Of a DNA stretch of 38,556 bases, positions 2,298 to 38,474 are shown piece by piece; positions within the stretch are counted from its first letter, which is position 1, and each line of letters starts with the position of its first letter. The notes under the pieces were generated by a model. That model saw only the letters and a program-made list of their open reading frames with translations. It was not told the origin of the DNA and did no database searches. This DNA is from Frankia torreyi (GTDB lineage Bacteria; Actinomycetota; Actinomycetes; Frankiales; Frankiaceae), in contig NZ_JYFN01000050.1 of NCBI RefSeq assembly GCF_000948395.1, positions 9,347-47,902 of the forward strand. The letters are read 5' to 3'. The position numbers and the translations under genes were made by a program.

Positions 2298-3500
2298 TCA
2301 CTGCCCACCGCCGTCTCGGCCTGGCCGCGGGCAGGTAGGCATGGCGTGCAGGTGGTCCCAGTAGTAGGCGGCGGCGGAGGGATGGAGCTGGACGGCACAG
2401 TAGAGCTTGTTGTCCTGGATTTCGGTCTTCAGATCGAGAAAATGCCGGTTGTGCGGGTCGTTCTTCCACAGGGCGGCTTCGAACTCGCTGCGGTCGTCAA
2501 CCAGCAAGCCGGCGACGAAGGTGACCAGGTCACCGTCAGCCTTGGCGTTCGCCAGCACGACGTTCGACGACGCGATCGTGTCCGTCGCGTCGATCCGTGT
2601 GTAGTCGTCACGTCGGAGCGTCCACTTCCGATAGTCTCCGCCGTGCAGAAAGGGATACTTGGCATCCCATTCGGACTGCATTCTCACGAGATAGTCCGTG
2701 CCGAGCGGCAGCAGCGTCAGCGTGGCCCCTTCCGGGTCCTTCAGCGCATCCGCGATGGTCGGCGTCGGTGCTCCTCCCGACCACAGGAGGGCGTCGGCAC
2801 GGTGGCTGCGGACGGCGTCCACCGCGTCGGCCAGCGTACTGTGCGCCATCGTCGGGTTGCAGTCCGGGATCTGGGCCCGGAGCTGGCGAAGGAGAATCGT
2901 GCCGGTGCGTTCCGTCCCCGACTCGACCAGCCCCGTCTCCAGGGTCCGGTTCTGCTGGCAGAGATCACCGAGCGCGGTAACCGGCCGGTCGTCCGGACTG
3001 CCCGGGTTCGGCGCCCGGACGACCACCTGGATGAAGTCCAGCCACAGCGGGCCGATGGTCCGCACCGTGGTCACGGGCCGCCCCTCGAACTGGTAGACGG
3101 CCTCGTGCGCGTCCACCGCCGTGCTCAGGCCACTGATGGACAGCCAGCAGGTGGCGGCCTTCGGGTCGGCCAGCACCCCGACGTTGAAGGCGCTCCCCTG
3201 TGTCGCCACGACGTTCACGACCGACCCGGGAAACCGCTGCGTAATGTTTCTGCTGATGACATCCGCATACTCGTCATAAGGCGTGGTCGTCGAATCATGC
3301 GCGGCGCCGCCCTGCCCGGCGAAAATGTCGATGACCGGGCACCTGCCGAGCACTCGCGGAGCGGCCGGCCGCGTTCGCGCACCGAGGACGGCGGCCAGCA
3401 TGCCCACGACGACAACCGCTACGCCAATGGCCAGGTAAACACCGCGTTCACCCCGCGAGAATGACCCCGCACTGGACACAGAGCAACAGCCCCCCACCAT
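2298..3500 (-). CDS. Membrane-anchored TAXI-family solute-binding-like protein
   Basis: A 400-residue protein with one strong N-terminal transmembrane helix (about residues 21-41), followed by an extracytoplasmic domain resembling TAXI/NMT1 substrate-binding proteins of TRAP transporters. Family-like features are the early strand/helix alternation around residues 50-130 and the block LADAVDAVRSHRADALLWSG with a following APTPTIADAL, equivalent to the 'dG.iDA.f...G.p.p.i..l' stretch. No TRAP permease genes are nearby, so it may act as a ligand sensor rather than a transporter component. It starts 31 bp after the TIR gene on the same strand, so the two are probably one operon. The start is uncertain because no good ribosome-binding site is visible. 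Confidence 0.65.
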   Translation of the reverse strand: MVGGCCSVSSAGSFSRGERGVYLAIGVAVVVVGMLAAVLGARTRPAAPRVLGRCPVIDIFAGQGGAAHDSTTTPYDEYADVISRNITQRFPGSVVNVVATQGSAFNVGVLADPKAATCWLSISGLSTAVDAHEAVYQFEGRPVTTVRTIGPLWLDFIQVVVRAPNPGSPDDRPVTALGDLCQQNRTLETGLVESGTERTGTILLRQLRAQIPDCNPTMAHSTLADAVDAVRSHRADALLWSGGAPTPTIADALKDPEGATLTLLPLGTDYLVRMQSEWDAKYPFLHGGDYRKWTLRRDDYTRIDATDTIASSNVVLANAKADGDLVTFVAGLLVDDRSEFEAALWKNDPHNRHFLDLKTEIQDNKLYCAVQLHPSAAAYYWDHLHAMPTCPRPGRDGGGQ

Positions 3501-3531
3501 GCTCCACGCCGTCCGGATAGACGGCAGGCGG

Positions 3532-4752
3532 CTATGTTACCCGTCCCGGTTCGTCGCCTTCGGAAGCGGCCGTGGAATATCCCGGCGGCGGGCATTCCTG
3601 CTGACGCCACGCGAGCGCGTACACCAGCATTCCGGCGATCCCGGCCTGCAGAGCCACCGCGCCCGCCGAATGGTCCGCCGAGACGAAGGTCGCGACCTCG
3701 GCCCCGCAGGCCGCCCCGAGCAGGGCCAGCACGACGGTCCGGGCCAGCTCACCCGCGGTCGGCCGCCACCTGGTCGCGAGCAGACAGCGGATCACGGCGG
3801 TACTCGCAACGCCCACCGCGACGACGCCCAAGGCGACCCCGGCGAGACCACCGCCCCCCGAGGACTGCCACGCGATGCCGCCGGCCTCGAGGCCCAGCCC
3901 GGCCAGGACGGCGACGCCCAGGGCGACCGGCCGCGCGGATGCGGAGAACCCGGGCATAGGAAGCCCGGGCGTTCGGCGCCGATCCCGCGGGCGGCCCCGA
4001 TCCCGCGGGCGGCCCCGATCCCGCGGGCGGCCCCGATCCCGCGGGCGGCCCCGATCCCGCGGGCGGCGCCGATCCCGCGGGCGGCGCCGATCCTGCGAAG
4101 CCTCGGGTGGTCGCGCCGGTTCACCCTGCTGACCGTCCGGGCGGGCGATCGGCGCCGGTGGGCGCGCGCTGGGCAGGGGCGGTGGTTGGGACGGTCGAGG
4201 CACCCTGCGGACCGGGGACGGCGGTGGCTGCGCCGCCACCGCGCTGCCGTCGGCGGCCGGCTCCCGGCGTCGGGTCGGGTAGTCGGGGGCGGTCCGCGGC
4301 CGGTTCTGGCCCGCCAGCGCGGCCCTGACCTGCGTGACCAGCTCCACCCGGGCGGCGCCAGCCGCCAGCCCGAACAGGTCGATGAAGACGACGGACCCCA
4401 GCGGGTCGGGAGGCCGGCAGTCGGCGACCCGGATCGGAATGAGCTTCCGGTCGGTGCCCGCGAGATCGGCTCCCCACGCGGCCCGCCAGTCCGTGCCGCC
4501 CTGACCCGAACGCAGGTAGGCGCTGGAAACAATGGCTATCGTCCGGGCGGAGCCGACGATACCGTTCTCGAAGAACGCCTGCCGGTTCATGCCTGGGACG
4601 AGATACCAGTCCTCCAGGAGCACCCGGTAGCCGGCCTCCTCCAAGTGCCAACCGACCCAGATGGCCCACTCCCTGTCCACCGGGGCACGGGAGATGAAGA
4701 AATCCCACCGGGGGCCGGTGACCTCATCCGCGTTCTCCGCGGCATCGAGCAT
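3532..4752 (-). CDS. TIR-domain protein with four C-terminal membrane helices
   Basis: A 406-residue protein if it starts at the ATG at 4752, directly before the TIR domain; the frame stays open upstream only through flavodoxin-like debris. Residues about 15-145 form a TIR domain (WDFFISRAPVDREWAIWV, then AIVSSAYLRS, then IPIRVADCRPP and FIDLFGL). Bacterial TIR domains are usually NADases or signalling modules. Where related actinobacterial TIRs have the glutamate of 'EWRAA', this protein has Asp88 (DWRAA). A Pro-rich linker then an (RPRDRG)n basic repeat lead to four predicted membrane helices and a short cytoplasmic tail. Its operon partner is the TAXI-like binding protein, which suggests ligand-triggered signalling across the membrane (inference). 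Confidence 0.75.
   Translation of the reverse strand: MLDAAENADEVTGPRWDFFISRAPVDREWAIWVGWHLEEAGYRVLLEDWYLVPGMNRQAFFENGIVGSARTIAIVSSAYLRSGQGGTDWRAAWGADLAGTDRKLIPIRVADCRPPDPLGSVVFIDLFGLAAGAARVELVTQVRAALAGQNRPRTAPDYPTRRREPAADGSAVAAQPPPSPVRRVPRPSQPPPLPSARPPAPIARPDGQQGEPARPPEASQDRRRPRDRRRPRDRGRPRDRGRPRDRGRPRDRGRPRDRRRTPGLPMPGFSASARPVALGVAVLAGLGLEAGGIAWQSSGGGGLAGVALGVVAVGVASTAVIRCLLATRWRPTAGELARTVVLALLGAACGAEVATFVSADHSAGAVALQAGIAGMLVYALAWRQQECPPPGYSTAASEGDEPGRVT
3981..4088 (-). repeat. 18-bp coding minisatellite, six copies
   Basis: Six contiguous 18-bp units (gatcccgcgggcggcSCC) plus a partial seventh to about 4096. They are in frame and encode a hexapeptide of Arg, Pro and Asp in the linker between the TIR domain and the membrane helices. 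The last two units differ from the others by one base. The number of copies could vary between strains and would change linker length without a frameshift. Confidence 0.9.
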
Positions 4753-4919: not shown

Positions 4920-5160
4920 CGTGTGAGACACCCCAGCGGGCTTCCCGGTCCTTCGCGTCCGGCGTGCCGATCACCGTCACCGGCTCACGCAGACGCTTCC
5001 ACTTCAGGCCGGTCGTGATCGCCTCAACCCCGCGGATTGCGCCGGTCGTGTCGGAGTTGCCGTGAACGTAGAGGGCCTATGGGCGACCAATGGTCGCTTC
5101 AATCACGGGATAGTAGATCTGGTCGCACAACTTGCGGAAAGTTGCATACGTTGCGCAACC
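4920..5160 (-). pseudogene. Flavodoxin-like C-terminal fragment, copy 1
   Basis: Translation on the minus strand gives ATFRKLCDQIYYPVIEATIG, a stop, then ALYVHGNSDTTG, GVEAITTGLKWKRLRE and a decayed tail. This matches the C-terminal half of the complete flavodoxin-like gene at 15956-16408. The N-terminal half is missing; homology begins about ten codons before DQIYYP, at a tacgtg sequence shared with other copies. A TAG interrupts the P-Y-A-L motif. After that stop the frame runs open into the TIR gene. Confidence 0.85.
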
Positions 5161-5189
5161 ACGCTACGTGTGCACGGATCGGGCCGCCA

Positions 5190-5270
5190 TGGCAGGGCGG
5201 GCCAGGAGACGGCCGGCGCGGCCCTGCCAGCTCGACACCCAGACGTCGAGGATTTGCTAAACTTTTCGCT
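5190..5270 (+). promoter_or_regulatory. Putative promoter/operator of the HigBA-like module
   Basis: Nine-base inverted arms TGGCAGGGC (5190-5198) and GCCCTGCCA (5221-5229) flank a 22-nt loop and could be an operator or a hairpin. A TAAACT hexamer at 5258-5263 fits an actinobacterial -10 element and sits so close to the GTG at 5271 that the transcript would be leaderless or nearly so. The stretch gaggatttgctaaac is conserved in a second, broken copy near 15925, which supports functional importance in the past. The promoter assignment is inference. Confidence 0.4.
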
Positions 5271-5642
5271 GTGGACGAGTGGGAGGTCCGCGTCACCGAC
5301 GAGTTTCTGGCCTGGGTCGACGGGCTCGATCCGAGATCGAAGGCGCTCGTGGTCGACGCGATAGACCGGCTGGCCGACGCCGGGCCAGGCCTGGGGCGGC
5401 CACTGGTCGACCGCCTGGTCGGCTCGGAGATCCACAACCTCAAGGAACTCAGGCCAGGTTCCGCGGGTTCCTCGGAGATCCGCGTCCTGTTCGTCTTCGA
5501 TCCCTGGCGCTGCGCGATTCTGCTGGTGGGGGGCGACAAGTCGGGCGACTGGTCCGGCTGGTACCGCACAGCGATCCCACGGGCGGAGACGCTGTACGTC
5601 GAGTACGTGAAGGAACGGGAAGCCGAGGAAGGCAGCTCATGA
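5271..5642 (+). CDS. RelE/HigB-like toxin (phage Gp49/DUF891 type)
   Basis: A 123-residue protein of the size and pattern of HigB-like mRNA interferases: an N-terminal helix region (DEFLAWVDGLDPRSKALVVD), then strands KELRPGSAGSSEIRVLFVFD and RCAILLVGGDKSGDWSGWY, the usual 'elR....g.yRilF.f......vllhgf.Kk' profile with some residue changes. Such toxins cleave mRNA on the ribosome. The GTG start at 5271 is preferred over the longer frame because it follows a promoter-like site and begins the conserved fold. Its last codons overlap the antitoxin start (ATGA). The toxin-first order is typical of HigBA. Confidence 0.8.
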   Translation: MDEWEVRVTDEFLAWVDGLDPRSKALVVDAIDRLADAGPGLGRPLVDRLVGSEIHNLKELRPGSAGSSEIRVLFVFDPWRCAILLVGGDKSGDWSGWYRTAIPRAETLYVEYVKEREAEEGSS

Positions 5643-5974
5643 CCAGATTTCCCCGGTGGAACGACGTCCGCGCCGGCCTGGTCGCCGACGCCGGCGGCGA
5701 GGAGGCCCTGGCCGAGGCCCACAGGCGCAACCAGGCCTACATCGACGGCCACCGGCTCGCCGATCGCCGCAGACTCCTCGGCCTGACGCAGACCGATGTC
5801 GCCGAACACATGGGCGTCAGCAAGAGTCGGGTCTCCCAGATCGAACGCGGCGAAGTCTCCACCGTGGACGTCATCGCCCGCTACGTCCGAGCCCTCGGCG
5901 GCCAGCTCCAGATCACCGCCGTCTTCGGCGACGACCTGTACATCCTGCGCGGCACCGACACGCCTGCCGCGTGA
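5639..5974 (+). CDS. XRE-family HTH antitoxin (HigA-like)
   Basis: A 111-residue protein starting at an ATG that overlaps the toxin stop by four bases. Residues about 40-95 are a lambda-repressor-like helix-turn-helix: LADRRRLLGLTQTDVAEHMG then VSKSRVSQIERGEVSTVDVI. The C-terminal part (LGGQLQITAVFGDDLYIL) is the short strand region common in HigA-type antitoxins. It should neutralise the upstream toxin and repress the shared promoter. Translational coupling and gene order support the pair. Confidence 0.88.
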   Translation: MTRFPRWNDVRAGLVADAGGEEALAEAHRRNQAYIDGHRLADRRRLLGLTQTDVAEHMGVSKSRVSQIERGEVSTVDVIARYVRALGGQLQITAVFGDDLYILRGTDTPAA

Positions 5975-6935: not shown

Positions 6936-7337
6936 CTACCGCGTGACGATGACCGTCGCGCGGTGTCCGGCAGCGTTCTTGAGCTTGGTGTCGCCTGTGA
7001 GCAGATTGCAGCCGAGTGCTTCGGCGAGCGCGATGTAGGCGGCGTCGTAAGCACCGAGGTTGTGCCGCAGCTCCCACATCCGGGGGTGGTAGGGCCAGAC
7101 CGGATGACGGGTAATCCGCAGGCGCGCGTAGTCAGCCAACATCTGCTCGCCACGATGAGCAGTGATCTTCTTTCCGGCGGCAAGCCGACGGACTGTTGAC
7201 GCGACCTCGACGTCGAGATGGTGCGGGGCGTGCAGTGTCCGCGGGGCGGACAGGCGCTGCCGGAGCACCTCGTCGCCATCGCGGACCGACAGCACATCGA
7301 TGACGAGCGAGCAGTCGACCACGTACGTGAGGGTCAA
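6936..7337 (-). CDS. vapC: PIN-domain toxin (VapC/FitB-type ribonuclease)
   Basis: A 133-residue PIN-domain protein. The acidic metal-binding residues expected of VapC are visible: Asp8 (VVDCS), Glu44 (LDVEVAS), Asp98 (GAYDAAYIALAEAL) and Asp116 (LLTGDTKL). PIN toxins cleave RNA, often tRNA or rRNA, using Mg2+. The start chosen is the TTG at 7337, whose TTGA overlaps the antitoxin stop and puts Asp8 in the right place; the longer upstream frame overlaps the antitoxin and is not protein-like. It is the second gene of a two-gene operon. Confidence 0.88.
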   Translation of the reverse strand: MTLTYVVDCSLVIDVLSVRDGDEVLRQRLSAPRTLHAPHHLDVEVASTVRRLAAGKKITAHRGEQMLADYARLRITRHPVWPYHPRMWELRHNLGAYDAAYIALAEALGCNLLTGDTKLKNAAGHRATVIVTR

Positions 7338-7579
7338 CGCCGCCCCTCGTCGCGCGCCGCGAGGATGTCGTCCATGGTGAGCCCCACAGGTTCCCTGTCG
7401 CGGACCATGCGGGCGATGACCTCGGCGTTGGTCTCCGTGGCCGCATCGGCATCCATCAGGTCCCGCAGGTACCCGGACAGCGACTGACCGAGCGATCTGG
7501 CCCGCTCGCGGAGGACCGCGAGCGTCGTCGGATCGACATCGCGCACCTGGATGATGCCCCCGTCGGCAGACTCGCTCAT
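7334..7579 (-). CDS. Ribbon-helix-helix antitoxin (FitA/VapB-type)
   Basis: An 81-residue protein. The N-terminal strand-helix-helix (IIQVRDVDPTTLAVLRERAR, then SLGQSLSGYLRDLM) matches FitA-like Arc/MetJ-fold antitoxins, whose dimer binds an inverted repeat in the operon promoter. The C-terminal segment (residues about 50-81) would wrap the PIN toxin. The ATG at 7579 lies 17 bp from a perfect inverted repeat (7596-7618). Its stop overlaps the toxin start. Confidence 0.85.
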   Translation of the reverse strand: MSESADGGIIQVRDVDPTTLAVLRERARSLGQSLSGYLRDLMDADAATETNAEVIARMVRDREPVGLTMDDILAARDEGRR

Positions 7580-7595
7580 CTGTCCACGCTACCAT

Positions 7596-8051: not shown

Positions 8052-11000
8052 CTACGGACCGTAGTGGACGAAGGATGCCCAGGCGGACGGTCGGTCGGGA
8101 TCTCGGGCGCGGGCGGCGAGGGTGGCGTCGTACAGCGCCTGCGCCGAGGCGGCGGCAGGGCCTAGGGCCGAATCCGCCTCGGCGTCTCGCAACTGGCGGT
8201 ACACCGAGCGGGCGACCCGCAGCGCCGCGAGATCCCACACCGTCCACAGGGTGGCGATCACATGGCGGTAGCCCGCGGCTTGGAAGGCCGAGGCGAGATG
8301 GATCGACTCGTCGAGCAGCCGGACGCTGGGCTCGGCGGTGCCACATGCCGACAGGTACGCCAGGCCACTGACGTCAACCCGTCGCCGGACGATGTCGGCC
8401 ACCGTCAGCGGCTGATGTTGGTGGTCGTAGACGAGGAGCGCGCTGTTTGACGGCTCGTCGATGTCCGTCACTCCGTGACACGCCAGATGGATCCAGGGCC
8501 GGGCGACCATCGCGGCCAGAACACGTTCCCGCGACGCCTGCGGACCGGTCAGGGTCTGAACGCGGCCGGGAAATGCCTCGGCGATCATGGACGCTTCCCG
8601 AGTCGCGTTGGGCAGGGGCTTGCGTTCCGGTGTTTTCGGTAGGGCTACCGCGGTGATCTCGGGCGCCCACGACCCGGAAGCCGCCGAGCCGACCGCCCCA
8701 TTTGGCGGCCGGCGGGAATCCAGCAGTGCGCGGATGGTCGGCGTGTAGCTGGAGACGACTCGGTCCAGCACGGTCCGGGGCTGCCCGCCAACGGCGTCCG
8801 TCGCCGGGTCGGCGATCTGGTGACCGGCGGCGTGCAGCGGCAGGAACGCCAGCACCCCGGTCGGGCACCACCACAGACGTCGTACGCCGCCGTACTGGTC
8901 CCAGACCCGGCGCTGGTCCAGCAACGAGAGAACCGGTTCCGCGATGCTGTCCCACAGCCACCGCAGCACCGCGTTGATCCGCTCCTCCGCCGCGGTGCGC
9001 AGATTGAGATCCACGGTGGAATCAGTGGCCGTCGCGACGGCAGCCGTCAGCGCCAGCACCTGGTCGCCGGCGGTGGCCGCGGACAGGTGCGCCAGCCTCA
9101 CCTGGTGGACGCCCGCTCGGGTCAGTACGAGCGCGTCGCAGCGGATGCGGTGCGGGTTGATGATGACGACCGGGCCGGCCCCGGCAGCGTCACGCATCTG
9201 GCTGAGGTCCGGCGGGAGCAGGAAGCGGGCGTAGCCGGGCAGCTGACGGGCCTCAGCCAGCAGGGCTTCGAACTGAGCGGCAAGGTCACGTCGATGTTGC
9301 TGAAGCTGAGCGTCGTCCACATGGAGCCGGCGGGGCGCGCCGGCCTCACGCGCCAGGTCGTCGGTGGGCGCGTCGAGCGCACGGCGTACCGCCTCGATCC
9401 GCCCGGCCAGGTCCGGATTGGTCTGTGCGAGCTGCCCTACGTCCGTTCGCAGTTCGCCGATCCGCCCGAGCAGAACGCCCCGGGCCTGATCCAGCAGCTC
9501 CACGGCCCGCTCGGGCATGCCGTCGGCCAGGGCGCAGGCCGCGACCAGGGATCCCAGTCCCTGTACCGACGTGAGCCGCCGTTGCTGGTCCGGCCGAGTC
9601 AGCCCACGTCCCACTGTGCGCGACAGCATCTCGATCGCCAGTTCACCGGCCTGCGTGGCCGTCGACCAGTCGGACATCTCAGCCGCGCCGATCGCCCAGG
9701 CGCGAGCGGCACCCGCTCGGGCCGTCGGGGTCGCCGTGTCCAGCCGGGCCGCGGTGGCGTAGGCCGTCTGCGCCGCCGCCTGATCGGCCTGTTCGCCGGT
9801 CCTCACGAACCGGGCGTATCGCGCCCGCCCCAGGTTGGACAGGTACACCGCCAGGTCGGGATGGCCGGGTGGAGTCAGCTCCACCGCGCGTTCGACGAGG
9901 GCGAGGGATTCGTCCAGATCAGCCATCGCCCCTGTACGTTCGAACAGCTGGAGCAGCAGGCCCGCCTCGTTGGACAGGCGTCCGAGGTAGGACGGGCTGG
10001 CCGGCGACGTGACCTGCACGGCCTCGCCGACCAGTTCTCGCGCCTCCCGGAGAACGGCCGCCTCCGCCCGCGCCTCGGCGCGCAGCCCGGTGCGCCCCGA
10101 ATAGGGGACGCTGTCTGCTGGCTGGTCGGTCGCGCCGCCGAGTGAGGCGGTCAACGCCAGGCTGAGTTTGGTCAGATAGGAAGCGCGATCGACGTGGTGG
10201 GCCGGGATGGCTGTGAGTGCGGCCCGCGCCGACGCGACGGCGGCGTCGGCGTCGGCGCGACGAGCGCCGATGAGGTAGCGGGCGCGCAGGGCTCCGGAGA
10301 GATTCGCCAGCCGACCCGCCCGCCGGGTGTCGCTGGCGGCCGTGGCATCCACCGAGGCCTCCAGCACCTCCACCGCCGCGTCGAGATCAACCGCCGCCCC
10401 GGTCAGCTCGAACCGGGTGTGCAGGACCCCTCCGTGGTTGGACAGATGCCGGGCCCGGTCCGCACGCCAAGTCGGGCTCTCGTCGACGGCGGCTCCCAAC
10501 TGGCGCGCGGCCTCATCGAGGTCCGCCGTCCGGCCGGTCAGCTCGTATCGGGTCGCCAGCGCCAGGCCAAGGGCGGAACTCGCCTCCGAACGCAGCGGGC
10601 GCCCCGGGACGAGCAGGTCGCGGGCCTCACTGGCCCACCGCACCGCGTCGTTGACGTCGGTCAGTGCGGCACGGCGTTCCGCGCGGGCCCGTGCCACCAC
10701 CGACAGGTTGACCAGCCGGGACGCACGGAGCTCGCCGGGCCGCGGAGTGGCGTCGACGGCATCGCGCGCGTAGCCAACCATCTCGTCCGACAGCCCGGAA
10801 TCGCCAGAGGTCTCGACCTGGAGCCGGATCGCGCTGACCAGAGCCGACACAAGACGGGGATATGCCAGGTCACCGCGAGAGGTCATCATCACGGCCTCAC
10901 GGGCGCATTCCGCGCCCCGCTCCAGATCCGACTCCTGGCCGCCATACTCGTACCGGGCCTGGAGGGACGCGCTCAGGTTGGCCAGGGCACTCGCGGTGGA

Positions 11001-12362
11001 GGCGCCAGCCCGGGTCACCCGCAGGAGATCTACCGCCGTCTGGCTGGCGCACACCGCCCGCTCCACATCCTCTGGATGCCCTTGGCGGTCAAAGCGCAGC
11101 CGCAGCGCGACGCCGAGACCGTTGTGCAGCAGCCCCAGGTGCGGATGCCCCGGCGGCAGGGCGTCTATCGCCTCCGCCACCAGCGCGGTAGCTTCGTCGA
11201 AGCCATCCGCCGAGTCGGTAGCCTCCGCCTGTGTTTGCAGCGCGTTTGACAGCGCAAGCAGAGCTCCTGACCTGGCCGGATGCCCTTTCGGGGCAGCGGC
11301 GAGAGCTCCCCGCGCGGCTTCGATGCCGAAGGTGAGGTCGGTGGGGTCGCCGGTCGCCTCGAAGCGCAGTATCAGGCAGCCGGCGAGACACGCCAGCAGC
11401 GCCACGGGATTGCGACTCGCGGAGGGCAGCGTGGCCGCCCGCGCGGCCAGGTTCAGCGCCCGTTCGAGATGGGCCAACTCGCCGGTGCGTTCATACAGGT
11501 CGGACAACATCGAAGCCACGTTCGACAGCCGCCCGGCGGCGTTGCCGTCGTCCTCGGTCAACGCCGCGGTCAGGGCGACGCACTCCTCGCCGGCCTCGAC
11601 GGCCGCGAGGAGATCGTCGAGGTTTCCGGTGGCACCGTGGCGCTGCTGCCGCGCGGTACTGAGGTTGGACAGTACCGCCGCGCGCTGCGGGTGCCCGGCC
11701 GCCGCCAGTGATGCGCCGCGTTGACCGATGGTGATCGCCTCGTTGAGGCTGGTCCGGCTGCCCGTCCTCTCCCAGTGCTGTCGCAGCGCGCTGCACATGT
11801 TCGACAGCCGGCCCGGCAGTCTGGGGTCGACCGGTTCGGTGACGTCGAGAATCCGCCGGCCCTCCGTGATCGCCGCCACGAGGTCGTCGAGATCGTGACG
11901 CAGCTCGTAGCGGGTGGTGAGTGCGGCGGCGAGGTTGCTCGCGTGGATGGCGAGGTGCGGGTCATCCGCGGTGGTCACCGCCAGCGCACGCCGGCCGAAC
12001 GCCACCGACTCGTCCAGATCCGCCTCGCCACCCCAACGGTTGTGACGCTGATGGAGTGCCCCCGCCAGGTTCGAAAGCCGTCCGGCCAGGTCAGGACTCG
12101 ACTCGGACGTCATCTCGACCGCGTCGCGTAACAGCCGAACCGCGTGATTCACCTGCTCGGAGTCCGCCATCGCGGCAGGTTCCTGCAGGATCGCCACGGC
12201 GGCACGGGTCCACTGCGTCACGTCGGCCTCATCCCCGGAACTCTCCGGCTGTGGACCTGGACCGCGCGCTCTTCGGCCGTGTGCCCGCCACACGCCGACC
12301 GCGGCTGGGTCCTCCTTGCGGCGCGCGGTCCCGACTACGGACGTCCACCAGCGCCCAAACAC
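8052..12362 (-). CDS. CHAT-domain caspase-like protease with TPR-like repeats (CATRA system)
   Basis: A 1436-residue protein. The C-terminal about 300 residues are a CHAT (caspase HetF associated with TPRs) domain with the catalytic dyad visible as His1296 (LACHGVTD) and Cys1340 (YLSACGTA), followed by SIHLASAFQAAGYRHVIATL. The preceding about 1000 residues are helical repeats of roughly 50 residues, each with an 'LSNLaxAL..R.e.tG...DL..A' core: TPR-like solenoid for partner or ligand sensing. The GTG start lies 12 bp after the small gene at 12375-12677, so they are co-transcribed. With the divergent large gene this matches the predicted CATRA conflict system (CASPASE/TPR-repeat-associated), in which the protease is the effector. 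Its substrate is unknown. Confidence 0.88.
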   Translation of the reverse strand: MFGRWWTSVVGTARRKEDPAAVGVWRAHGRRARGPGPQPESSGDEADVTQWTRAAVAILQEPAAMADSEQVNHAVRLLRDAVEMTSESSPDLAGRLSNLAGALHQRHNRWGGEADLDESVAFGRRALAVTTADDPHLAIHASNLAAALTTRYELRHDLDDLVAAITEGRRILDVTEPVDPRLPGRLSNMCSALRQHWERTGSRTSLNEAITIGQRGASLAAAGHPQRAAVLSNLSTARQQRHGATGNLDDLLAAVEAGEECVALTAALTEDDGNAAGRLSNVASMLSDLYERTGELAHLERALNLAARAATLPSASRNPVALLACLAGCLILRFEATGDPTDLTFGIEAARGALAAAPKGHPARSGALLALSNALQTQAEATDSADGFDEATALVAEAIDALPPGHPHLGLLHNGLGVALRLRFDRQGHPEDVERAVCASQTAVDLLRVTRAGASTASALANLSASLQARYEYGGQESDLERGAECAREAVMMTSRGDLAYPRLVSALVSAIRLQVETSGDSGLSDEMVGYARDAVDATPRPGELRASRLVNLSVVARARAERRAALTDVNDAVRWASEARDLLVPGRPLRSEASSALGLALATRYELTGRTADLDEAARQLGAAVDESPTWRADRARHLSNHGGVLHTRFELTGAAVDLDAAVEVLEASVDATAASDTRRAGRLANLSGALRARYLIGARRADADAAVASARAALTAIPAHHVDRASYLTKLSLALTASLGGATDQPADSVPYSGRTGLRAEARAEAAVLREARELVGEAVQVTSPASPSYLGRLSNEAGLLLQLFERTGAMADLDESLALVERAVELTPPGHPDLAVYLSNLGRARYARFVRTGEQADQAAAQTAYATAARLDTATPTARAGAARAWAIGAAEMSDWSTATQAGELAIEMLSRTVGRGLTRPDQQRRLTSVQGLGSLVAACALADGMPERAVELLDQARGVLLGRIGELRTDVGQLAQTNPDLAGRIEAVRRALDAPTDDLAREAGAPRRLHVDDAQLQQHRRDLAAQFEALLAEARQLPGYARFLLPPDLSQMRDAAGAGPVVIINPHRIRCDALVLTRAGVHQVRLAHLSAATAGDQVLALTAAVATATDSTVDLNLRTAAEERINAVLRWLWDSIAEPVLSLLDQRRVWDQYGGVRRLWWCPTGVLAFLPLHAAGHQIADPATDAVGGQPRTVLDRVVSSYTPTIRALLDSRRPPNGAVGSAASGSWAPEITAVALPKTPERKPLPNATREASMIAEAFPGRVQTLTGPQASRERVLAAMVARPWIHLACHGVTDIDEPSNSALLVYDHQHQPLTVADIVRRRVDVSGLAYLSACGTAEPSVRLLDESIHLASAFQAAGYRHVIATLWTVWDLAALRVARSVYRQLRDAEADSALGPAAASAQALYDATLAARARDPDRPSAWASFVHYGP

Positions 12363-12374
12363 GGCTAATCCGGC

Positions 12375-12677
12375 CTATTTGCCGAGTTTGTGAATGGTGT
12401 CGGTCAGCCGTTCACGAACGACGCCCGTTGCCTTCGTCCCCGAATCCTTACCCGCGTCGTTGCCACGGCCGGAGTCGAGCCGAAGGTCTTCCAGCACCCG
12501 CGTCAACTCCTTGACCGCGCCCGAGTCCTCGGCGTCCACAGCCAACTGAAGCGACTGGAGAGTGCGAGAGACACGACTCCAGATGCCCGGAGTTGTCTCC
12601 CAGTCCAGGGCACTGTGCAGGACGTCCAGAGCCTCCTCCCGAATCTGCTCGTCGATCATGCCGCCACCGAAATGCAC
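12375..12677 (-). CDS. CATRA system-associated small protein
   Basis: A 100-residue, mainly helical protein. The region EALDVLHSALDWETTPGIWS, then VSRTLQSLQLAVDAEDSGAV, resembles the small helical proteins predicted to accompany CHAT/CATRA pairs (a 'DWxxTpxxWxxVxxxLxxLxxA' profile). The GTG start at 12677 has a GAGGG seven bases upstream; an ATG at 12659 is the alternative. It precedes the CHAT gene in an operon and probably regulates or scaffolds it. Assignment rests on context plus a modest sequence resemblance. Confidence 0.65.
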   Translation of the reverse strand: MHFGGGMIDEQIREEALDVLHSALDWETTPGIWSRVSRTLQSLQLAVDAEDSGAVKELTRVLEDLRLDSGRGNDAGKDSGTKATGVVRERLTDTIHKLGK

Positions 12678-12761
12678 CCGCTGTCCCTCGCCATGCGCAC
12701 GATTATGCTGGTATCTCGGGAGTCCTGATCAGGGGCATCCGGATCGGAGGCAGTCCAGATC
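12678..12761. promoter_or_regulatory. Divergent intergenic region of the CATRA genes
   Basis: An 84-bp gap between the divergent small gene (minus) and large partner (plus). Any promoters for both arms of the system should be here. GGAGG at 12746-12750 would serve the GTG at 12762; a second GGAGG at 12766-12770 lies only three bases from an ATG at 12774. No clear operator palindrome was found. Confidence 0.35.
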
Positions 12762-14432
12762 GTGCGGAGGGACATGTCCCAGCACAGTGCCGAGACGTTG
12801 ACCGCTCACGAGTTCGTCGCGCATCTGTACGCGCCCACGTCAAGCCCGCGGGCTGTCGAACTTTACACGTACCTGCGCGGTCTCTGGTCACGCTGCCAGG
12901 TCGAACTCGGCATGACCAGCCCCATTCCGGCCTTGGGGGTCCCACCGGATCCGCCGGCGCACAGCGAGCCGGATGAGACCGCGGTCTTCACCCCCATCGC
13001 CGCCGCACGCCGCGAGGGCGACGGGGTGCATCAGGTTCTGCTACGGCGGGTGCATGACGTGCTGTGCCTGTCGGTGTCCCTGGCGCCGCGCCACGGCAGC
13101 GATCTGACCTGGGCACGGCTGCGCAGCGACTGGGCGAGCATCAGCGAGCCGCTCCCCGACGGGCTGCTGGGCACGGCCGAACTCTACCTCGCACTGTTCC
13201 CGGCGTCAGGACTGGAACGGACCGAAGCAGGAGCCGATCTCAGTGCGGCCTGCCGCGCGCTGCTGCCAGCCCCGGCAGCCGCCGATTTCGATGGACGGGG
13301 TGTGTCGACGGCGGGCGGCTTCATCGCCTGGGACGCGGACACCGGTCCGGACGACCGCCTCACCCGGCGCATCGTGGCCCTGGCCCCGGCCGACCACGCC
13401 GCCGAGCTCAGTTCCTGGGCCTGGAGCCGGGGCGGGCCCGCCGAGGGCATGGTGATCACACCGCTCGCGCGGTACCTGATGCAGGCGGCGAAGCTCCGCT
13501 ACCACCTGCGCGTCTGGGCGGCGGGGGCGCCGGTGCGGGCGGCCCGCCGAGACACCGAGTCCGCGCTCGCCACGGTCACCGCCCTGCTCGATGAAAGCTC
13601 ACTGTTGGCCGCCAGACCCGTTCCCTTCAACTCCGCGGCACACTCTGGAGCTCTGCTCGACTCGAACCAGACCGCGCTTGACCGCGCCGTGGCGTTGCTG
13701 CGGGCCGAGATCGTGCACCTGGCCGGCACCGCCACGGCACTGCGCCAGATGCGACGGTCCGTGGAGGCCAGTGCCGCGAACATGGCCGCCTTGGCCGACC
13801 AGATCCCGGCGAGCGCCCGCGATCGGGCCGATGCGGACCACCATCACCTTTATGCCGACGACGACGCCCTGGCCACCTGGTTCGCTCGCCAACTTGACGA
13901 TGATCTCTTCTCGGTCGAAACCACCGTTGACCGGGCCCGCGCGGCGATCGGCGACATCGTCCCGACATCAGTGCCGCCCACGCCGCCAGCCCCACCGGAA
14001 CATCCGAAGTGGACATATTCGCCGACGGTTCCACCTATTCCCGCCAGCGAGGCATGGCCGGTATCCACGGACATCGACCTCACCGCCCCAGACCGCGCGG
14101 CCTTACTGGATACCGTGGCCAGCCTCTTCCCAACCGAAAATCACGCGGGCCACCTGCTCCACCAGGTGGGTTTACCCAGAGAAAGACGAGTCGGCTTGGA
14201 ATCCGTGGCGCCAATAGTCGGGTGGAGTCAAATTTTCGCCGAGTTCGACAACGGAGTCATTTTCAACCCATACCGGCGCCTGCTCGCCGCCGCACTCGCC
14301 CTCTACCCTTACAACCCGACCTTACGGAACCTCGCTCGCGCCAACGGCCTGAAAATCGCACTTGAAGAGTCCCAGAAAGCCTCGACCACTCCTGACTACG
14401 ACCCCGTTCGGAACGTAAGGCGCCTAACCTGA
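12762..14432 (+). CDS. CATRA conflict system CASPASE/TPR-repeat-associated large protein
   Basis: A 556-residue protein (552 if it starts at the ATG at 12774). It begins with TAHEFVAHLYAPTSSPRAVE, the opening I associate with the CATRA-N proteins that accompany CHAT proteases in actinomycetes. The middle (about residues 240-380) is helical and may include a coiled coil (RRSVEASAANMAALADQIPA), and a Pro-rich linker near residue 410 separates a C-terminal domain (about 430-556) with LFPTENHAGHLLHQVGLPRE. No enzyme motif is visible. It probably controls or senses for the CHAT protease encoded divergently. Confidence 0.7.
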   Translation: MRRDMSQHSAETLTAHEFVAHLYAPTSSPRAVELYTYLRGLWSRCQVELGMTSPIPALGVPPDPPAHSEPDETAVFTPIAAARREGDGVHQVLLRRVHDVLCLSVSLAPRHGSDLTWARLRSDWASISEPLPDGLLGTAELYLALFPASGLERTEAGADLSAACRALLPAPAAADFDGRGVSTAGGFIAWDADTGPDDRLTRRIVALAPADHAAELSSWAWSRGGPAEGMVITPLARYLMQAAKLRYHLRVWAAGAPVRAARRDTESALATVTALLDESSLLAARPVPFNSAAHSGALLDSNQTALDRAVALLRAEIVHLAGTATALRQMRRSVEASAANMAALADQIPASARDRADADHHHLYADDDALATWFARQLDDDLFSVETTVDRARAAIGDIVPTSVPPTPPAPPEHPKWTYSPTVPPIPASEAWPVSTDIDLTAPDRAALLDTVASLFPTENHAGHLLHQVGLPRERRVGLESVAPIVGWSQIFAEFDNGVIFNPYRRLLAAALALYPYNPTLRNLARANGLKIALEESQKASTTPDYDPVRNVRRLT

Positions 14433-36752: not shown

Positions 36753-36996
36753 GTCCCGCTGGCCGAACGAGGCCGTGCCCGCGGTAGTGGGGCCGGCCTC
36801 GCCGTCACCTCCGTCGATTGTCGCCTCGGCCGAAAGGGCCGTGACGGCACCGGCCTCTTCAGATGCCCTGCTGTCCGGAAGCCAGGACGGGCCACGGTAA
36901 ATGACCGCGATGCCCCCGAAGCACGCCATCGCCCGCAGTCGAGAGCGGGCGTGGGTGCTGTCGATCCGACCCCAGCCGGTCTGGGAAGGTGACAGC

Positions 36997-37017
36997 ATGG
37001 CATCGGGGGAAAAATGA
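36997..37017 (+). other. Six-codon upstream ORF overlapping the TIR-NB-ARC start
   Basis: ATG at 36997 opens MASGEK and its stop TGA overlaps the ATG of the TIR-NB-ARC gene (ATGA at 37014-37017). GGGAAGGTGA lies just before it. It could be a coupling leader peptide, or chance. Nothing else was recognised in 36753-36996. Confidence 0.3.
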
Positions 37018-38474
37018 CATTGTTTGCGGACGGGTCGCGTCAGCGAGTGTTCATCAGTGTCGCGGGCCCGGACCGGCCGTGGGCGCGGTGGATTGCGCAA
37101 CACCTGCGCCGTGCCGGGTACGAGGTCGAGTACGACGAGTGGACGTGGCAGGCGGGCACCAGTTTTCTCGCGCGCATGGACATGGCCCTGGCCAGAGCCG
37201 ACCGCATCATCGCCGTGATAACTCCCGCGTACCTCGATCGGACCTCCTTCGGCCGGGAGGAACGCGAGGCCGCGCTGCAACTCGCGCACGAACGAGACGG
37301 CCTGCTGGTGCCGGTGATCGTCGCACCCACCGCATTGCCGCCACTCCTTGCCCGGTTGTCGAACATAGATCTGACCGGATTGAGCGAGGAAGAGGCCGCC
37401 GCCCGCCTACTCGATCGGCTCGCGGTCCGGGCGCCGCATCTGGACGAGCGGGTTCCCTGGCCCGGAGCGACGTCCACCGGATCCGCGCAGCGGCGGGCAG
37501 ACCGTGCCCGGCAGATCCCGTTTCCCGGTTCGATACCGCCGATCTGGAATGTCCCGCCGAGACTCCCCACCTTCACCGACCGGGTCGAGGTCCTGCACCG
37601 GATCGAGGTGCTGTCTCGGCAGCCGGTCGGCCGATCGGGCCCCGGCGGCAGCCCGGCCATCACCGTGCTGCGCGGCCTCGGCGGCGTCGGCAAGACCCAG
37701 GTGGCAGTCGAGTACGCCTGGCGCCACGCATCCGAGTACACCCTGGTCTGGTGGGTCAACGCCACCCAGTCGGCGCTGATCACGGAGAAGATCGCCGCCC
37801 TCTCGAGCCGACTCGACCTTCCGGAGAGCGGTATTCTCGCAAAGGATGCCCAGGCCGTCCTCGCGATGCTGGCGCGCCGCCCCCGCTGGTTGCTGGTTTA
37901 CGACAACGTCGAAAATCCCCGCGACCTGCGCCCATGGCTGCCCGGGGGAGCCGGTGACATCCTGATCACCTCCCGCAGCCCGAGCTGGGGGGACATGGCG
38001 ACGAGAATCGACGTCGATGTTCTGCCGCGAACCGACTCCATCACCCTGCTGCGAAGCAGGAACGCGGGCAGCGACGTGAGTTCGGCCGCGGATCTGGCCC
38101 GTGAACTCGGTGACCTGCCACTGGCCCTCGAACAGGCCTCGGCCTACATCGAGCGGACGGAGATGGGGCTGTCCACCTATCTGAACAAGTTCCGGTCCCG
38201 CCGGGAGCGGATGCTGCGTAAAGGCGAGGACCTGGCCTACGGCGGGAATCTGCACACCGCCTGGTCGCTGTCCCTGGAACGCCTGGAGGCGACCGAACCT
38301 GCCGCCGTGCAGTTGTTGCAGATCGTCTCGGTCCTCGCCCCGGATCTGATCCCGTTGACGTTGTTCGAGGAGGCCTCGGCCATCCTGCCGGAACCGCTGC
38401 GTTCCCGAGTCAGCGGTGAGGATCCCGGGGAGGATCTGGACGACATCATCGCCGCGATCGCGGGCGTGTCATGA
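37014..38474 (+). CDS. TIR-NB-ARC STAND protein, C-terminally truncated
   Basis: A 486-residue product. Residues about 8-125 are a TIR domain (RVFISVAGPDRPWARWIAQH, RIIAVITPAYLDRTSFG, then acidic REER at 81-84 where the NADase glutamate is expected). NB-ARC follows: GLGGVGKTQ with Lys227, WLLVYDNVENP with Asp297, ILITSRSPSW, GDLPLALEQASAY, and the start of the winged-helix part. It stops at DDIIAAIAGVS, the point at which relatives, including the FxsT-like protein here, continue into 'LAR...hrLvQ' and TPRs. The stop lies at an IS-like end, so the sensor part is lost and the gene is probably broken. Confidence 0.82.
   Translation: MTLFADGSRQRVFISVAGPDRPWARWIAQHLRRAGYEVEYDEWTWQAGTSFLARMDMALARADRIIAVITPAYLDRTSFGREEREAALQLAHERDGLLVPVIVAPTALPPLLARLSNIDLTGLSEEEAAARLLDRLAVRAPHLDERVPWPGATSTGSAQRRADRARQIPFPGSIPPIWNVPPRLPTFTDRVEVLHRIEVLSRQPVGRSGPGGSPAITVLRGLGGVGKTQVAVEYAWRHASEYTLVWWVNATQSALITEKIAALSSRLDLPESGILAKDAQAVLAMLARRPRWLLVYDNVENPRDLRPWLPGGAGDILITSRSPSWGDMATRIDVDVLPRTDSITLLRSRNAGSDVSSAADLARELGDLPLALEQASAYIERTEMGLSTYLNKFRSRRERMLRKGEDLAYGGNLHTAWSLSLERLEATEPAAVQLLQIVSVLAPDLIPLTLFEEASAILPEPLRSRVSGEDPGEDLDDIIAAIAGVS

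Follow-up and report, generated by a model that had tools for sequence, protein, structure and literature searches.

Bacterial TIR domains have mostly been studied as intracellular phage-defence enzymes, and the arrangement of an outside sensor, a membrane helix and a cytoplasmic TIR domain is that of the animal Toll-like receptors, with which the bacterial gene pair described here can be compared by analogy only, its ectodomain being unrelated and its domain order reversed (the TIR domain comes first). For this pair, in which a TIR protein with four hydrophobic helices is encoded next to a binding protein of the TAXI class, the best parallel in print is the GlnH-GlnX-PknG system, of which GlnH is a lipoprotein and belongs to a binding-protein class other than TAXI. 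In the sections of the two reports that bear on it, the proposal is that the amino-acid state reaches a kinase by way of the binding protein and a four-helix protein (PMC6069109, PMC9769921), a contact that the same authors describe as not yet shown. The likeness lies in an extracytoplasmic binding protein and a four-helix protein leading to a cytoplasmic output, with the genes together. GlnX, as described in those sections, has two large periplasmic four-helix bundles and works with a separate kinase, whereas the four-helix protein of our pair bears the TIR domain itself and has short modelled loops, with no such bundles in its low-confidence model. By analogy, we propose the same logic for the pair, with assembly of TIR domains as the output.

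Two other kinds of system come near the pair. TAXI proteins classically partner TRAP or GltS, according to the part of PMC12344293 that treats them, and in the corresponding part of PMC11574862 the glutamate binding of VcGluP is dominated by Tyr45 and Gln93, with Ala mutants that bind 213-fold and 990-fold more weakly. The Frankiaceae proteins share with these the TAXI fold and the pocket Tyr, and most of them the key Gln (PMC11574862, PMC12344293); they differ in lying on or beside signalling modules, in 35 genomes that have neither DctM nor GltS. The EACC1-caspase systems, as the relevant part of PMC7159879 presents them, are actinobacterial membrane two-gene systems, some of which have an outside binding-protein domain after a helix; they carry a caspase, whereas our pair carries a TIR domain and, by Pfam scans, has no EACC1-like first gene. 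A term search of the text of PMC7159879 did not return the word "TAXI", and the open-access PMC literature searched yielded no paper on a coupling of TIR with TAXI.

The window, by which we mean the whole stretch of 38,556 nucleotides that was analysed, comes from a Frankia torreyi genome of 7.6 Mb. The pair lies near its beginning, and the coordinates given in the initial annotation hold up: the TIR gene has its start codon at 4752, and the TAXI gene ends at 2298. Its features are as follows.

3532..4752, minus strand: TIR-4TM gene, 406 aa; predicted cytoplasmic TIR, Pro-rich linker and four hydrophobic helices
4366..4701, minus strand: TIR_2 domain, residues 18-129 (Pfam TIR_2, E 8.6e-25)
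4489..4491, minus strand: Asp88 codon, at the conserved-Glu position (Glu in 43/46 other TIR domains)
3974..4097, minus strand: 18-bp tandem repeat, a basic hexapeptide repeat in the linker, lineage-specific
3595..3936, minus strand: four C-terminal membrane helices, residues 273-386, by hydropathy and AlphaFold2
2298..3500, minus strand: TAXI (NMT1_3) gene, 400 aa, predicted membrane-anchored binding protein
3375..3446, minus strand: N-terminal membrane helix of TAXI, residues 19-42, by hydropathy and model
2331..3341, minus strand: predicted extracytoplasmic TAXI domain, residues 54-390, with six conserved Cys
3129..3131, minus strand: Gly124 codon, aligned with the ligand-binding Gln93 of VcGluP; Gln in most Frankiaceae TAXIs

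Elsewhere in the window, a CHAT-TPR gene on the minus strand adjoins a CATRA-N/CATRA-C/EAD1 gene (12729-14429, plus strand), the two spanning 8052-14429 and being of conflict-system type. A second TIR gene (36993-38471) has Glu at the catalytic column and a weak NB-ARC match just below the cut-off (E 1.1e-4). Two further places look toxin-antitoxin like, namely 5037-5974, where a Gp49-like gene is followed by a helix-turn-helix gene, and 6936-7595, where a PIN-domain gene stands next to a small gene (7334-7579).

The TIR-4TM gene runs from an ATG at 4752, a start backed by the aligned Met starts of two orthologues, to a stop that ends at 3532, and the TAXI gene follows 31 bp downstream on the same strand. 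Its product consists of an N-terminal TIR_2 domain (Pfam PF13676; 88 bits against a curated cut-off of 28), a long Pro/Arg-rich linker and four segments that are hydrophobic by hydropathy, and the structural match list of its model is filled by TIR structures with Z up to 15.3. The AlphaFold2 model, built on a six-row alignment, is poor overall (pLDDT 61.6) with a fair to good TIR part; it places helices at 273-297, 303-326, 333-357 and 361-386 with low pLDDT, separated by gaps of 3-6 residues that are likewise of low confidence. The TIR domain and four helices of the initial annotation are thereby borne out. The basic repeat that it took as the tie between them (6.9 copies, 97% matches) is missing in all five of the other aligned TIR-4TM proteins; it is therefore not a conserved coupling element, and we dismissed it as incidental. 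Proteins of this build are rare: among the family TIR matches listed, only six scored above 300 bits on a TIR-4TM profile, and these are the genes on which the profile itself had been built; five of the matches extend through the helices while the sixth covers the TIR part. Against the PADLOC defence models, the TAXI protein has no match and the window TIR a best score of 21.7 bits (Aga TIR models).

The neighbouring protein belongs to Pfam NMT1_3 (E 4.1e-17, 63.2 bits against a cut-off of 27), and its AlphaFold2 model (pLDDT 83.8, pTM 0.82) has seven best PDB matches that are all TAXI proteins: 1us4, 8u79, 9ibo, 4ddd (a TAXI protein in the part of PMC11574862 that mentions it), 8s4j and two chains of 9ibp (entry title VCA0144), which we took as TAXI. 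Together with the single N-terminal helix, these matches confirm the membrane-anchored binding protein that had been noted next door. The six cysteines, which are kept in 14 of the 18 TAXI rows of our alignment A1, fit an oxidising, outside location. The pocket positions of VcGluP were mapped through a PDB relative and the same alignment: Tyr45 corresponds to Tyr75 of the window protein and is invariant in 18/18 rows, and Gln93 corresponds to position 124, where Gln stands in 14 rows, Lys in two (L078, L083; the L numbers denote loci) and Gly in two, those of the window and L053. The L054 protein, outside A1, also has Gly there when read by eye. Because Tyr and Gln are kept, an amino-acid-like ligand seems possible for most Frankiaceae TAXI proteins; in the clade of the window, where the Gln so important for glutamate binding is missing, the ligand is probably a different one.

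The TIR-4TM and TAXI pair is common to three genomes (window, L053 and L054), and in the compared stretches their other neighbours share no gene cluster. The TAXI proteins are 64% identical across the three, and pairwise dN/dS is about 0.35-0.41 for TAXI, about 0.52-0.69 for the TIR domain and about 0.59-0.87 for the whole TIR gene, all pairwise comparisons made being below 1. By these estimates the TIR half is less constrained than the TAXI half, and relaxed constraint is one possible cause of the faster evolution of TIR-4TM. Both genes have uninterrupted reading frames in the window, in L053 and, as far as the contig end, in L054. At L077 a TIR-4TM gene again precedes TAXI, and its sister TAXI on the tree, that of L081, is part of a TIR-helix-TAXI fusion, an arrangement that interconversion of two-gene and one-gene forms would predict.

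A search of 35 Frankiaceae genomes with a TAXI-domain profile found 61 places in 26 of them, and the surroundings of all 61 were scored for TIR, Ser/Thr kinase, histidine kinase and TAXI frames, with Pfam checks added on chosen genes. TIR is linked to TAXI at 14 of the 61 places, by fusion at five and through a neighbouring gene at nine. The fusions comprise two straight TIR-helix-TAXI proteins (L063, 595 aa; L081, 580 aa) and three TIR-kinase-helix-TAXI proteins (L055 and L062 by Pfam, L065 alike by profile), and in all five a helix stands directly ahead of the TAXI domain. The neighbouring TIR gene is on the same strand in the window, L053, L054, L077 and two cases in L082, convergent with TAXI in L079 and L083, and divergent in L202; L082 counts twice since it has two TAXI genes. 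There (L082:5085-10198) a TAXI gene, a double-TIR gene, a TAXI gene and a further TIR gene stand in a row, and of the two TIR domains encoded by the double gene the second matches a ThsB model (65 bits).

The other TAXI places are mostly beside different modules. A Ser/Thr kinase without TIR is fused or adjacent at 17 of the 61, in the same protein at five (L056-L060) and as the next gene at 12 (L052, L066-L076). Histidine kinases lie within 3.5 kb at 21 (L088-L091, L203, L205-L220), of which 13 are on the same strand within about 0.6 kb, five on the same strand at 1.2-2.2 kb and three on the opposite strand. An EAD1-domain gene adjoins TAXI at two (L078:7127-9455 and L080:398-2828). A signalling module is thus fused to or near TAXI at 54 of the 61 places, window included, and was not found near the other seven, which are L084-L087, L204, and L061 and L064, whose surroundings are cut by contig ends. 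L084-L087 form a TAXI subgroup, one copy of which, that of L085, has a superoxide dismutase gene nearby. The TIR protein of L186 (646-2499) has five hydrophobic segments, and no TAXI is listed at that site; a helix-bearing TIR therefore needs no TAXI.

With at least 536 TIR matches in 251 Mb of family genomes, the chance of a TIR within 2 kb of a TAXI gene is 0.0085, or about 0.5 expected among 61. Linkage at 14 of 61 has a binomial P of 1.7e-16, a figure in which chance covers TIR only and which treats as independent places that, through loci shared among relatives, are not. On the TAXI-domain tree, a quick tree with several long branches, TIR linkage needs at least four changes; for the TIR-gene label, three are required by the starred branches. 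The survey of TIR-TAXI linkage that had been suggested as a check thus finds the coupling real and recurrent on these sequences, five times within single proteins, and the objection that such genes show no recurrent linkage fails.

The group appears restricted in its distribution. Within Frankiaceae this TAXI class scores at least 255 bits, and outside the family none exceeded 161 bits (best 160.8) in 396 genomes of the phylum and 393 of the class, two samples that overlap, the class sample including family genomes. At 28 TAXI loci outside the family, taken from the phylum search with flanks of about 1.5 kb, no TIR or kinase frame was seen. A contig scan with one genome per species returned 17 loci, all from Frankia or Parafrankia, although it could miss other taxa because its patterns came from Frankiaceae sequences. 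As far as searched, the TAXI-based sensor group is confined to Frankiaceae.

DctM, the membrane component of TRAP transporters, was found in 0 of 35 family genomes (controls matched in 7 of 14) and GltS in 0 of 35 (controls in 2 of 14), so neither classical membrane partner of a TAXI subunit was seen, nor was any transporter gene beside the window TAXI, in support of the earlier remark that the binding protein stands without transporter genes. The NCBIfam model TRAP_TAXI matches the window protein (E 3.7e-18) at 65.4 bits, below its cut-off of 84.35; four other scanned TAXI proteins pass it. Given the linkage to TIR, kinases and EAD1 and the lack of DctM and GltS, the most plausible role of the Frankiaceae TAXI protein is that of a sensor outside the cytoplasm whose cytoplasmic outputs can be exchanged, TIR being one of several.

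Whether the TIR domain cleaves NAD+ turns on residue 88. In an alignment of TIR domains from 20 loci of the same genome and 24 of the family, plus the TAXI-linked TIRs, Glu occupies this column in 43 of the 46 ungapped TAXI-unlinked domains (one unlinked row, gapped there, was excluded); the window has Asp instead, and the orthologues L053 and L054 both have Gln. Two other conserved positions are changed in the window, Trp-Asp to Trp-Tyr and Asn-Trp to Asn-Arg. A range-level structure alignment places model residues 15-147 on AbTir 134-267 and SARM1 561-700, which puts Asp88 at about AbTir 207-208, in agreement with the catalytic Glu208 of that protein, and at about SARM1 634-641, adjoining Glu642 (a number from the title of the structure entry); the five PDB alignments at residue detail are with Toll-related and MyD88 TIRs. 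Within the limits of sequence comparison and of structure comparison at the level of ranges, Asp88 is at the active-site position, where, as first noted, relatives carry Glu. The series Asp, Gln, Gln reads as loss of the enzyme and not as a tuned version of it, which makes the suggested "weakened" enzyme doubtful, and with these replacements the window TIR probably signals by assembly and not by NAD+ cleavage.

Other TAXI-linked TIRs differ in this respect. By our reading, Glu is retained in nine of 14 (L055, L061, L062, L065, L077, L079, L081, L083 and L202) and lost in five (window, L053, L054, L063 and the first TIR of L082). L062 and L065 are gapped at the column and their adjacent Glu was read by eye; L061 is outside the 14 linkage cases and was counted here because its TIR is on the same contig, 3.3 kb from TAXI. 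For the Fisher test, L202 and two extra L082 TIRs (another letter at the column, a nearby Glu by eye) were left outside the 13 linked domains: 5 of 13 linked against 3 of 46 unlinked gives P 0.0096, or 0.079 with the three orthologues counted as one, and we did not uphold Glu loss as a hallmark of TAXI-linked TIRs.

It is very improbable that the TAXI protein is an ordinary solute-binding protein for a distant transporter, with the TIR gene a chance neighbour. Such a role would suit the classical TRAP or GltS partnership (PMC12344293, in the part concerned) and the Pfam and NCBIfam models, which are named for transport or ligand binding, but we rejected a chance neighbourhood on the strength of the fusions and the 14/61 linkage, the score falls short of the TRAP_TAXI cut-off, and the absence of DctM and GltS from each of the 35 genomes, which covers these two permease classes, argues the same way.

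More room, though still an unlikely prospect, must be left for an active NADase with Asp in place of Glu, in which case a ligand would trigger the unit to deplete NAD+ as a means of suicide or defence. NADase activity is known from bacterial TIRs such as SpbK (PMC12847820), several TAXI-linked TIRs retain Glu (L061, L077, L079, L081, L083 and L202 among them), and the window has the conflict-type genes listed above (CHAT-TPR, CATRA-EAD1 and the TIR with a weak NB-ARC match); against this stand the Asp and Gln of the three orthologues, the altered Trp-Asp and Asn-Trp motifs and the lack of a close PADLOC model. The same lost Glu, together with the lost pocket Gln, the tandem-repeat expansion in the linker and the dN/dS of the TIR gene, might be taken for decay, with a TIR that is losing function in a unit that is a relic; this we consider decidedly unlikely, since the frames are intact as far as the contigs reach, dN/dS is below 1 for every pair and the pair has been retained in three different contexts.

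We favour, at a probability of roughly 0.6, the reading of the window pair as a two-component membrane receptor, which draws on the pair itself, its recurrence, the fusions, both folds, the missing transport partners and the lost Glu, all read from the sequences. The fusions suggest a topology of a cytoplasmic module, one helix and TAXI outside; in the two-gene form TAXI has one helix and TIR has four. TAXI would be anchored by its N-terminal helix with the binding domain outside, where it would bind a small molecule, and its closure, presumably through contact between the two proteins, would be relayed inward across the membrane to the four helices of TIR-4TM, so that the TIR domains in the cytoplasm would cluster differently. 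For the window clade, because the catalytic Glu is replaced, the TIR would most likely be a non-enzymatic platform for TIR-TIR assembly, and we infer that its downstream partners would be recruited to it, the absence of Glu favouring recruitment over catalysis; where relatives have kept Glu, the same receptor could control the cleavage of NAD+. Several observations speak against the receptor reading: the TIR-4TM/TAXI pairs of L079 and L083 are convergent and form no operon, the TIR gene of L202 is divergent and encodes repeats in place of helices, the L186 protein does without a TAXI, the TIR-4TM half evolves faster, the TIR-4TM profile recovered its own source genes, and seven TAXI places were found without a signalling module nearby. 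Of the ligand-gated, weakened or regulatory TIR first envisaged, the coupling of TIR with TAXI, the TAXI role without a transporter and the Asp88 site have thus stood, the part given to the repeat has not, and the weakening is in doubt.

A wider version, which we put forward tentatively and with clear reservations, is that Frankiaceae have Toll-like membrane TIR receptors in which TAXI senses an outside metabolite and drives TIR assembly in the cytoplasm, the window clade being an NADase-free adaptor that recruits other TIRs while its sisters drive kinases from the same ectodomain. If the receptor reading is true, the pair would give bacteria a membrane TIR receptor, and with it one could ask directly what chemical from outside switches a TIR; TAXI proteins, known from transport, would be recast as sensor domains with swappable outputs in plant-associated bacteria.
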